From positions 62,001 to 126,000 of the forward strand of contig NZ_PZJG01000004.1 of the NCBI RefSeq assembly GCF_003259675.1: a DNA stretch of 64,000 nucleotides, given 5' to 3'. The position numbers were made by a program, and so were the translations under genes. Shown one piece after another: positions 40,421-43,071 of this stretch (position 1 is the first letter of the stretch; each line of letters starts with the position of its first letter). The notes below the pieces were generated by a model. The model ran no database searches. It was not told the DNA's origin and worked only from the letters and a program-made list of their open reading frames with translations. Source of the DNA: Macrococcoides bohemicum. GTDB lineage: Bacteria; Bacillota; Bacilli; Staphylococcales; Staphylococcaceae.

Positions 40421-41590
40421 TTATTCTGATAAGATTTTAATAGTAATTACCTTTAAATATTTCGAAGCCTTATATTTATCAGTTGTTTTAAAATCTTTAG
40501 GGAGCCCCATAATAGATTCGATTTCAAATTGGCATAATGGCGTAAGCGTATCTGTTATCATTTTTTTAAATTGTTTTAACGGTACATTAGAAGCATTCGT
40601 TGATAAAATTAAATACCCATTATAGTTCACGAGCGGAATAGCAGCTTCTATAAGTTCATGATAATTATCTTTTACAGAGAATACTTTTTTCTTATTGCGT
40701 GAAAAACTAGGGGGATCTATGATGATTGCATCAAAAGTTTTAAGATGACGGGCAAAATATTTTAATGCATCGAATGCATCTAATGTATAAAATTTTTGTT
40801 TTTCAAGAGGTAATTCATTAATCGCAAAATTTTGTTCCATCAACTCAATAGAACGCTTAGCAATATCCACATTTGTCGTTTTATAGCTATTCGTTGCTGC
40901 AGCAATAGAAAATCCACCAGAATAGGCAAATAGATTTAGGAAGTCACTTCCTTTAGTCTCAAGTTTCAATAATTTTTTACGTACATCACGTTGATCTAAA
41001 AATAAACCCGTCATAGCTCCATCATTTAAATCAATCATATAATTGAGATTATTCTCTAATATCATTATCGGAAATTCAACTGTTTCATCAGTAATTTGGT
41101 GAGTCGTCACATTTTTATCATATCTAAGTTTTTCAAATATACTTTTATATTCGAAGATTTGCTTAATTGCTTCTACAATCACAGTTTTAAATTGAAAGAT
41201 ACCTTTTGAATACCATTGAATTAATAAATGGCCATCATAATTATCTATCGTAAATCCACCTAATCCATCACCTTCACCGTTGTATAGTCGAAATGCATTT
41301 GTATCAGTCGCATTGAATAAAGACGCTCTAAAGTCTTTTGCTGTTTCAAATAAATCAATAAAGTATGATGTCTCTAAAGCTGATACATATCCATCACTAA
41401 CTTTCCAACCGAATCCTCTATTTTGTAATCCACAATAAAACGTACCTAAATGCTGGCCGGTATCACTTTGAACTGTGAACAATTCTCCTTCATGGATATC
41501 ATCTTTTTGATAAATATCATCTTTTTCTATTAATAGATAACCTTGTTTAAACTTTTCCTGTTTATTTTTTTTGAGTAATACGCTTTTCAT
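40421..41590 (-). CDS. Class I SAM-dependent rRNA methyltransferase (RlmI-like)
   Basis: A 389-residue protein. An N-terminal PUA-like RNA-binding region (about 1-75) precedes a central DGLGGFTIDNYDG element, then a Rossmann methyltransferase with NLFAYSGGFS (SAM site) and DPPSF (catalytic region). It belongs to the RlmI/YwbD/YccW group that makes m5C in 23S rRNA; the exact target base is not readable here. An AAAGGAG site precedes the ATG. Its promoter must overlap or follow the hairpin at 41633. Confidence 0.88.
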   Translation of the reverse strand: MKSVLLKKNKQEKFKQGYLLIEKDDIYQKDDIHEGELFTVQSDTGQHLGTFYCGLQNRGFGWKVSDGYVSALETSYFIDLFETAKDFRASLFNATDTNAFRLYNGEGDGLGGFTIDNYDGHLLIQWYSKGIFQFKTVIVEAIKQIFEYKSIFEKLRYDKNVTTHQITDETVEFPIMILENNLNYMIDLNDGAMTGLFLDQRDVRKKLLKLETKGSDFLNLFAYSGGFSIAAATNSYKTTNVDIAKRSIELMEQNFAINELPLEKQKFYTLDAFDALKYFARHLKTFDAIIIDPPSFSRNKKKVFSVKDNYHELIEAAIPLVNYNGYLILSTNASNVPLKQFKKMITDTLTPLCQFEIESIMGLPKDFKTTDKYKASKYLKVITIKILSE

Positions 41591-41627
41591 GTTTGTACTC
41601 CTTTAGTTTGATAATTTTACTATAACA

Positions 41628-41711
41628 CAAAAACGGCAGCTGCCATCAAAGGCAGCTGCCGTGATATTTATTCGGAAAAATGAACTCCCATCCCCATGGG
41701 TTAATGTTTAC
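41628..41711 (-). ncRNA. Candidate small RNA, about 84 nt
   Basis: A minus-strand promoter (TTGTGT, 17 bases, TATAAT) predicts a start near 41711. A 12-bp GC-rich terminator ends the transcript near 41628. The RNA contains CCCAU-GGGG-AUGGG, a five-bp hairpin with a GGGG loop at 41687-41700, and the string GGGGAUGGGAG. It has no ORF with a ribosome site. It lies between the rRNA methyltransferase gene and a membrane protein gene. I cannot assign it to a named family. Confidence 0.55.
41633..41662 (-). terminator. Strong GC-rich terminator
   Basis: A perfect 12-bp stem ACGGCAGCTGCC/GGCAGCTGCCGT around a six-base loop; T5 follows on the minus strand but no T run on the plus strand. Confidence 0.85.
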
Positions 41712-41717
41712 TCTTAG

Positions 41718-41746
41718 ATTATATACCGTATTGTTGTAGTACACAA
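41718..41746 (-). promoter_or_regulatory. Promoter of the candidate small RNA
   Basis: TTGTGT (41741-41746) and a perfect TATAAT (41718-41723) read on the minus strand, with a spacing of exactly 17 bases. It is located after the stop of the upstream membrane protein gene and before no protein gene closer than the methyltransferase. Confidence 0.65.
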
Positions 41747-41790
41747 CAATAATTTCACAAATTAATTAGCCGTGTGTTATATCACGTTTA

Positions 41791-43071
41791 TTAATATCGT
41801 TTACGTATGTGAATAATATACAACGGTACAACAAATATAAACATCAGCAATAAAATAGGTGGGATAAACAGGGCTAAGTTTACACCTTTAAAAACCATTA
41901 AATAAATACTCGTCACAATTTTTAACGTCAAAAAAGAAATAGTAAAAAGTTGTCCAAAGTATCCTTTTCTTTTGAAATAAATTCTAACAGAGAAATAAAT
42001 ATATCCTATGATAATAATCAGTAGTCCAACAAGATTAATCCATTCATAGAAATATTGCATTTTAACGACATTAAATTTACTTGCATCAAATAAGATATTA
42101 CGATTATTCAATTCAATCACTGTAATGATAAACATTAATGAACTAAGTAAAATTTCTATATGAAATGACTTTATCCATCGTGGACGTTTATACCACGAAG
42201 GTATGTCCTCTTCTACAAGATTAATTTTATCTTTAACGGTATTAATCACTCTTTTAAAGAATAATATTATTTTTTCATCAACCTTTAATGATGTTGTTGA
42301 TATTTTTTCTATCGTCGAATTTGTTCCTTCCTGCAACTTCTGATTGATTTGTAAATCTCTTTTCTTTTTATTACGGCGACTTAATTTATCATGTTCATCA
42401 TCTTTTGAACCTAATGATCTTTTCAGGAATACATAATTAAAGAGACATAATGCAGCAATTATAAGTAGCACTATAAAATAAAAGTTAATACTCATGACAT
42501 CTAAAGGTGTCACTTTTTCTTTATTTAAATTATCATAGACAGCAAGTTGTGACATAAAATAAGCCAACCCGTATACTCCAATCAAAACCACAAAATGAAA
42601 TTTGCGATAATGCACATTGAGTTTGCGACGATTAATCGTATAATAAACGAGAAGGATAAAAAATAGTAAATAAAACAAAGAAAATATACCATATACCTCA
42701 AATAAAAAGATGATAATTACAAGTAAAATGATACTTGCCGCTAAAAGATAATAGTATGCAATCGTTTTATCAAATATAGTTGTTTCTTTAAGCTTTCTTG
42801 AAACATAAATAAATGATAATCCGATAATGATTAATAATACGCCATAAATAGCAGGAGAATGCTTGATATAATGACTTAAGAGTTTAATTAATTCAAAAAT
42901 ATAAATATTAATAAAATCAAAAAAGTTATACATGTGTAATTTATTGATATCTATATCTTTAAAATGAGCAATCCGATTGCCATGGTAAATTATAAAAATA
43001 CCTAAAAATATACTAATAGCAGCAATAAAGTAGCCAATTAGTATTTCAAAATGTGTTTTAATCCAGTTCAT
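41791..43071 (-). CDS. Multi-pass membrane protein of unknown function
   Basis: A 426-residue protein. About seven hydrophobic helices lie in the first 220 residues, then a basic polar loop of about 90 residues (KDDEHDKLSRRNKKKRD onwards), then four more helices at about 305-420. No transporter or enzyme motif is recognised. An in-frame basic end RKRY follows the last helix. It is transcribed alone, with a short AT-rich leader. Confidence 0.75.
   Translation of the reverse strand: MNWIKTHFEILIGYFIAAISIFLGIFIIYHGNRIAHFKDIDINKLHMYNFFDFINIYIFELIKLLSHYIKHSPAIYGVLLIIIGLSFIYVSRKLKETTIFDKTIAYYYLLAASIILLVIIIFLFEVYGIFSLFYLLFFILLVYYTINRRKLNVHYRKFHFVVLIGVYGLAYFMSQLAVYDNLNKEKVTPLDVMSINFYFIVLLIIAALCLFNYVFLKRSLGSKDDEHDKLSRRNKKKRDLQINQKLQEGTNSTIEKISTTSLKVDEKIILFFKRVINTVKDKINLVEEDIPSWYKRPRWIKSFHIEILLSSLMFIITVIELNNRNILFDASKFNVVKMQYFYEWINLVGLLIIIIGYIYFSVRIYFKRKGYFGQLFTISFLTLKIVTSIYLMVFKGVNLALFIPPILLLMFIFVVPLYIIHIRKRY

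Follow-up and report, generated by a model that had tools for sequence, protein, structure and literature searches.

A predicted small RNA (sRNA) of Macrococcoides bohemicum, encoded between auxA and an rlmI-like gene, is in our judgment probably a stand-alone RNA that acts as a sponge of the sRNA RsaE, and it would belong to a family separate from RosA and RsaI, whose jobs it would match. The window in which it lies, meaning the whole stretch analyzed, comprises 64,000 nt (NZ_PZJG01000004.1, positions 62,001 to 126,000), and feature coordinates are window positions. A promoter, a G-rich core, and a terminator are present, all three are conserved in related genomes, and the complementarity to RsaE is unusually good. 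The predicted RNA is probably of a known kind (a sponge) with a new identity and no Rfam family, and a literature search of open-licence PMC papers found none describing it.

A predicted sRNA complementary to RsaE

The elements of the predicted sRNA are as follows.

41629-41712, minus strand: predicted sRNA of about 84 nt, its start inferred from the -10 element and its end from the terminator
41741-41746, minus strand: -35 element TTGTGT, matching the consensus TTGACA at 3 of 6 positions
41718-41723, minus strand: -10 element TATAAT, a perfect consensus match
41687-41700, minus strand: hairpin CCCAU-GGGG-AUGGG with GGGG exposed in the loop (sequence and fold)
41685-41695, minus strand: GGGGAUGGGAG (DNA: GGGGATGGGAG), the exact complement of CUCCCAUCCCC in host RsaE (3' UCCCC motif)
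41705-41710, minus strand: UAAACA, a predicted additional 6-bp contact with RsaE UGUUUA, adjoining the 11-bp helix in the predicted complex
41629-41662, minus strand: intrinsic terminator, a 12-bp stem and T-run (sequence scan)

From these elements we infer transcription, RsaE binding, and titration. Transcription of the sRNA would start at a dedicated promoter in the gap that separates auxA from the rlmI-like gene, and would stop at a dedicated terminator. The G-rich segment of the sRNA, partly displayed as a GGGG loop, would pair with the 3' C-rich motif CUCCCAUCCCC, with which RsaE itself binds its targets, and this pairing could titrate RsaE and relieve its repression of central-metabolism mRNAs.

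The initial annotation had named the C-rich RsaE string and had proposed a covariance search with RsaE and RsaI models. That search located a single RsaE (RF01820) in the host genome, scoring 93.8 bits against a cut-off of 79 and lying outside the window at C25:190682-190779. Host RsaE reads CTCCCATCCCC, which contains CUCCCAUCCCC, so that both the named string and its exact complementarity to the sRNA were borne out. In the 2.4-Mb host genome this 11-mer occurred at two places only, in RsaE and opposite the window RNA, and the control read backwards occurred at none. The duplex of the 57-nt core with host RsaE had an energy of -32.7 kcal/mol versus -18.6 +/- 3.2 for shuffled sequences, none of 300 being equal (shuffles called equal, here and below, are at least as good). 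A two-strand fold of the sRNA and RsaE predicted a gain of 16.0 kcal/mol, with the 11-bp helix and a 6-bp helix (UAAACA/UGUUUA). The motif that the window RNA would pair with is the same 3' UCCCC motif of RsaE that, in the cited passages of PMC9217828, is required for RsaI to bind Staphylococcus aureus RsaE in vitro.

The remaining features reported for the locus by the initial annotation were mostly confirmed. The CCCAU-GGGG-AUGGG hairpin is present at 41700-41687, and the terminator stem (41662-41633) has 12 bp, 9 of them G-C pairs, followed by T's. Terminator-like sites were enriched in the region, with 5 found against a shuffle mean of 0.3. An 87-nt version of the predicted RNA folded at -34.6 kcal/mol versus -19.6 +/- 3.4 for shuffles (0 of 200 equal), and most of this energy, judged from the drawn structure, is due to the terminator. 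No gene-sized open reading frame (ORF) lies between promoter and terminator, as had been claimed; a listed 32-amino-acid GTG ORF begins upstream of the -10 element. We also considered a mini-peptide, given that the ATG in the core opens frames of 5-16 amino acids (MGMG...) in all 9 Macrococcoides; this was rejected because length and later letters vary and no Shine-Dalgarno sequence is visible ahead of the ATG. A scan of the 64-kb window with Rfam gave 0 matches at cut-off. Fifteen matches below cut-off near the locus (GibS at 27.7 of 115 bits, Ref1C, greA, and others) were set aside as chance or terminator matches to families of other organisms.

Conservation of the sRNA in related genera

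The comparison covered 24 genomes: 9 Macrococcoides, 6 Macrococcus, 8 Mammaliicoccus, and 1 from a fourth Staphylococcaceae genus. The sRNA occupies the gap from auxA to the rlmI-like gene in 9/9 Macrococcoides; there, CCATGGGGATGGG, TTGTG, and TATAAT are invariant and the terminator letters vary. These three sequences are unchanged despite protein identity falling to 72% for the RlmI-like protein and 60% for AuxA. The initial annotation had made its reading depend on conservation in relatives, and promoter, G-rich core, and terminator were kept in every Macrococcoides genome. A G-rich RNA with a terminator was also found ahead of the same gene in 6/6 Macrococcus, 8/8 Mammaliicoccus, and the fourth-genus genome, bringing the count to 24/24, with lengths of roughly 80-110 nt. 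The upstream neighbor was auxA in 16/16 genomes of Macrococcoides, Macrococcus, and the fourth genus and in 5/8 Mammaliicoccus; for the other 3, the stretch or contig was short or no match was seen. The Macrococcus RNA has GAUGGGAGAA unpaired in addition to a hairpin with a GGGG loop, and two-sided base-pair changes affect one pair in its hairpin and three in its terminator.

RsaE scored above cut-off in all 24 genomes carrying the sRNA. When each RNA was paired with the RsaE of its own genome, at most 1 of 300 shuffles was equal in 9/9 Macrococcoides, at most 2 of 300 in 6/6 Macrococcus, and 1 of 300 in the fourth genus. In three Macrococcoides (GGGGAUGGGAGAAAUUU) 17 consecutive nucleotides pair with RsaE, or 15 when G-U pairs are excluded. 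The Mammaliicoccus sequence, UGGGGGAAAUUUU or a near variant, pairs with RsaE over 12-14 nt including G-U, and its longest run without G-U is 8-9 nt.

Covariance models of the RNA were built from the six Macrococcus (R1), from Mammaliicoccus (R2), and from Macrococcoides (R3), and were run on the fetched loci, for which the E-values are rough. R1 matched 8/8 Mammaliicoccus (E 2.3e-6 to 1.6e-4), the fourth genus (4.4e-4), and 4/9 Macrococcoides (E up to 0.01), with one more at 0.88 and the other four, the window's included, unmatched. Among the loci given to it, R2 matched one Macrococcus (8.3e-4), the fourth genus (0.0023), and, weakly, two Macrococcoides (0.057 and 0.25). R3 matched two Mammaliicoccus at 1.2e-4 and a third at 0.024, 2/6 Macrococcus (0.13 and 0.19), and the fourth genus at 1.6. 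An order-wide R1 search of 157 genomes under stricter filters was strong only in its six source Macrococcus genomes and gave no match in the window's genome. Matches of 25-33 bits also arose at unrelated sites, for example 32.9 bits elsewhere in G022. Because whole-genome scores of this size arise by chance, the cross-genus kinship is significant only in the fetched-locus searches. Position and model matches together make it likely that the RNAs of the four genera share common descent, although sequence alone is no proof of it.

Putative control of the promoter

A catabolite-responsive element (cre)-like site was scored as a 14-mer near the predicted start, out of 11 positions and against 200 shuffles, using the cre consensus. 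Scores of 10/11 were reached in 11 of the 24 genomes, namely 8/8 Mammaliicoccus, the fourth genus, and 2/6 Macrococcus (0 to 4 of 200 shuffles equal). Scores of 9/11 in 4/9 Macrococcoides (20 to 32 of 200 equal) were suggestive. For the relatives that carry such a site, we infer possible control by CcpA.

Only the host's own clade has a palindrome over the -35 element; three genomes carry it in perfect form and two in a shortened form.

41730-41750, no strand assigned: palindrome ATTGTTGT-GTACT-ACAACAAT over the -35 element

This palindrome is a possible operator in place of a cre. Separately, a TTTGTGAA-type element at 41754-41761 was observed upstream of both the sRNA promoter and the RsaE promoter (L001) in several Macrococcoides; it could be a ResD-, SrrA-, or Rex-type site.

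Pairing with an IsrR-like sRNA

A second C-rich sRNA bears on the question of targets. It was found in Macrococcoides, Macrococcus, Mammaliicoccus, and the fourth genus, and is termed IsrR-like, as a working label, for its Fur-box-like repeats and C-rich motifs. Many Staphylococcus matches of this search cover the repeat only. One example of the sRNA is at G000:C13:599196-599276 (L276), with relatives among L261-L289. IsrR itself is discussed for the genus Staphylococcus only, as far as the cited part of PMC9410917 extends.

Pairing of the sRNA with the IsrR-like RNA was computed in 22 of the 24 genomes (G006 and G014 had a match without a fetched locus). It was no better than shuffles in 8 Macrococcoides, 5 Macrococcus, and the fourth genus (44 to 197 of 200 equal), and in the host 165 of 200 shuffles paired equally or better. 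Since this pairing is ordinary in three genera, the sRNA is not simply G-rich glue. The proposal of the initial annotation, an undescribed G-rich sponge or mimic for UCCC-type sRNAs, is supported by the nine-genome conservation, the genome-unique complement, the pairing energies, and the ordinary IsrR-like pairing.

The strongest alternative is that the sRNA is a multi-target sponge for several C-rich sRNAs, including RsaE and the IsrR-like RNA, in the manner of RosA, which sponges both RoxS and FsrA in Bacillus subtilis according to the passages cited from PMC8216469. In all 8 Mammaliicoccus the IsrR-like pairing was clearly above shuffles (0 to 4 of 200 equal), and four of them share an 11-nt perfect complement, CATAAAAGGGG, to the IsrR-like RNA. 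However, this was not so in the 14 genomes tested from the remaining genera, among them the window's, and we consider a general multi-target sponge unlikely, though worth keeping in view; the IsrR-like RNA was the only other C-rich sRNA searched for. The Mammaliicoccus result suggests a second or changed target there, and the target set of the RNA may therefore have shifted between genera. In Mammaliicoccus we also observed a second partial match to the IsrR-like 5' region (promoter and part of the Fur box), for example at G018:C1:1541003-1541067, about 100 bases past the first and on the same strand.

Neighboring genes and cis-acting alternatives

The order on the minus strand is auxA, promoter, G-rich hairpin, terminator, and rlmI-like gene.

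41791-43071, minus strand: upstream gene auxA (lipoteichoic acid stability factor; NF047417, 328.6 bits, cut-off 250)
41619-41627, minus strand: extended -10 element of the next gene (TGTTATAGT), directly 3' of the terminator (sequence scan)
40421-41590, minus strand: downstream gene for an RlmI-like S-adenosylmethionine-dependent RNA methyltransferase (PF10672, PF17785, and PF03602 above cut-off)

A search of the RlmI-like protein against NCBIfam equivalogs gave none at its cut-off.

This order, with promoter, hairpin, terminator, and gene on one strand, is also what would be expected of a cis-acting leader or attenuator of the rlmI-like gene, in which leader folding switches the terminator. 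However, the gene has its own TGnTATAGT, a sequence element and not a mapped start, after the terminator in 9/9 Macrococcoides and in 16/16 genomes over Macrococcoides, Macrococcus, and the fourth genus; the element was not found in Mammaliicoccus. The sRNA therefore looks like a separate unit. Furthermore, the terminator varies freely in its letters but the G-rich core stays the same, no sign of a conserved antiterminator was seen (no systematic search was made for one), and neither the window nor the loci scanned contained a leader or riboswitch family at cut-off. A leader is improbable on these grounds.

It is about equally improbable that the terminator belongs to auxA and that the RNA arises by processing of the 3' untranslated region of the auxA transcript, in which case it might still bind RsaE. 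Such an origin would agree with the want of any terminator-like site from the auxA stop to the sRNA promoter in the window. Against it, the promoter is conserved, and a hairpin with a T-run was seen by eye upstream of the sRNA promoter in two Mammaliicoccus loci (L094 and L095).

Distribution relative to Staphylococcus and RsaI

The model for RsaI (RsaOG, RF01775, cut-off 50 bits) scored above cut-off in 84/84 Staphylococcus genomes and in 0/24 genomes of the other genera. In 36 Staphylococcus loci, neither R1 nor R3 found the sRNA. One R3 match in the gap of S. argensis (E 0.16) proved by eye to be the auxA terminator without a G-rich core. A G-run without a cre was present in 2/35 Staphylococcus loci.

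Outside the family, 31 loci (L189-L220 minus L191) were scanned for G-runs and cre only, and no such RNA was recognized; in the 500 bases ahead of the rlmI-like gene, 7 had short G-runs and 0 had a cre. The sRNA was likewise seen in none of 18 stretches from 19 same-order genomes outside the family that have an rlmI-like gene (G137 was left out). In 17 of these 18, the bases ahead of the gene resemble another coding frame by eye. In G108, from another family, AuxA ends about 14 bases before rlmI and leaves no space for the RNA. The sRNA probably arose in a family ancestor and later disappeared from Staphylococcus, in which RsaI would do the job.

The initial annotation had also offered a divergent RsaI-like RNA, and a relocated RsaI homologue would account for the shared predicted partner, for the presence in several genomes of a cre-like promoter site, and for the complementary distribution. 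As a family assignment this was not supported: in addition to the RsaOG counts above, that model had no match at the window locus at E up to 10 or in the six loci scanned at E up to 5, searches of 9 RsaI loci with R1, R2, and R3 gave nothing at the position of RsaI, and the sRNA measures roughly 80-110 nt against 147 RsaOG model positions, making the idea very improbable.

Evidence weighing against an RsaE sponge

Several observations count against the proposal that the sRNA is a stand-alone RsaE sponge. The promoter TTGTGT-17-TATAAT is present as the initial annotation stated, with a 17-nt spacer and a perfect -10, but to call it near-ideal was too strong because the -35 agrees with TTGACA at just half of its 6 positions. 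This weak -35 is accompanied by the absence of the promoter from the consensus-scan output and by a lack of enrichment of promoter-like sites in the region (7 found against a shuffle mean of 11.0). The scan showed nothing terminator-like from the stop codon of auxA to the sRNA promoter, so auxA lacks such a site of its own there and part of the RNA could be read-through.

As for pairing, the hairpin stem is predicted to sequester part of the seed. Elsewhere in the 64-kb window, perfect complements to one part or another of RsaE number six at 11-13 nt and 17 at 10 nt; all of these other complements have at most 4 G/C, versus 8 in the 11-mer of the sRNA. In 8/8 Mammaliicoccus the duplex with their own RsaE was just modestly above shuffles (6 to 23 of 300 equal), and there the RNA pairs more strongly with the IsrR-like RNA than with RsaE.

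The window's own RNA was matched by neither model from another genus (R1 or R2) in the fetched loci. Finally, the best cre score in the host species was 8/11, reached by 90 of 200 shuffles, and cre scores were no better than chance in the host's clade (5 Macrococcoides) and in 4/6 Macrococcus. Sugar control is unproven in the host because no cre-like site beats shuffles there.

Comparison with known sponges and significance

Few sRNAs are conserved from Bacilli to Staphylococci, and RsaE/RoxS is one of them. In the window's genome RsaE (RF01820), C-rich and mRNA-binding, is the proposed partner, and the sRNA carries its G-rich complement.

In the passages cited from PMC8216469 and PMC9217828, G-rich regions of RosA and RsaI bind C-rich motifs of RoxS/RsaE; RosA is repressed by CcpA in B. 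subtilis and RsaI is CcpA-regulated (PMC8216469). The window RNA was set beside RosA by published description only. Like RosA, it appears to stand alone with its own promoter and terminator (as sequence elements), and it may share a link to CcpA through the cre-like sites that some relatives carry close to the start. In contrast, RosA is given in the cited description as about 229 nt and heavily processed (PMC8216469), compared to about 84 nt for the window RNA. RsaI resembles the window RNA in having G-rich segments against RsaE, and differs in locus, length, and sequence, with no match between the models. The same passages of PMC8216469 describe in RsaI an additional, C-rich region for mRNAs; none is obvious in the window RNA.

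Tentatively, and with somewhat more doubt than belief, we propose that an undescribed RNA family fills the anti-RsaE role in four Staphylococcaceae genera, that Staphylococcus, without the RNA at this locus, has RsaI, and that the Mammaliicoccus RNA was re-aimed at, or widened to, the iron-sparing IsrR-like sRNA. If this is true, selection would keep the job of the sponge, while the RNA and even the target would be exchangeable. The prediction is specified to the single base. Bacillus and Staphylococcus each have a known sponge of RsaE/RoxS, and the two differ. Were the sister genera to have a third, this would suggest a need for a counter-RNA in every organism with RsaE, and would provide a natural experiment in the replacement and re-aiming of such RNAs.
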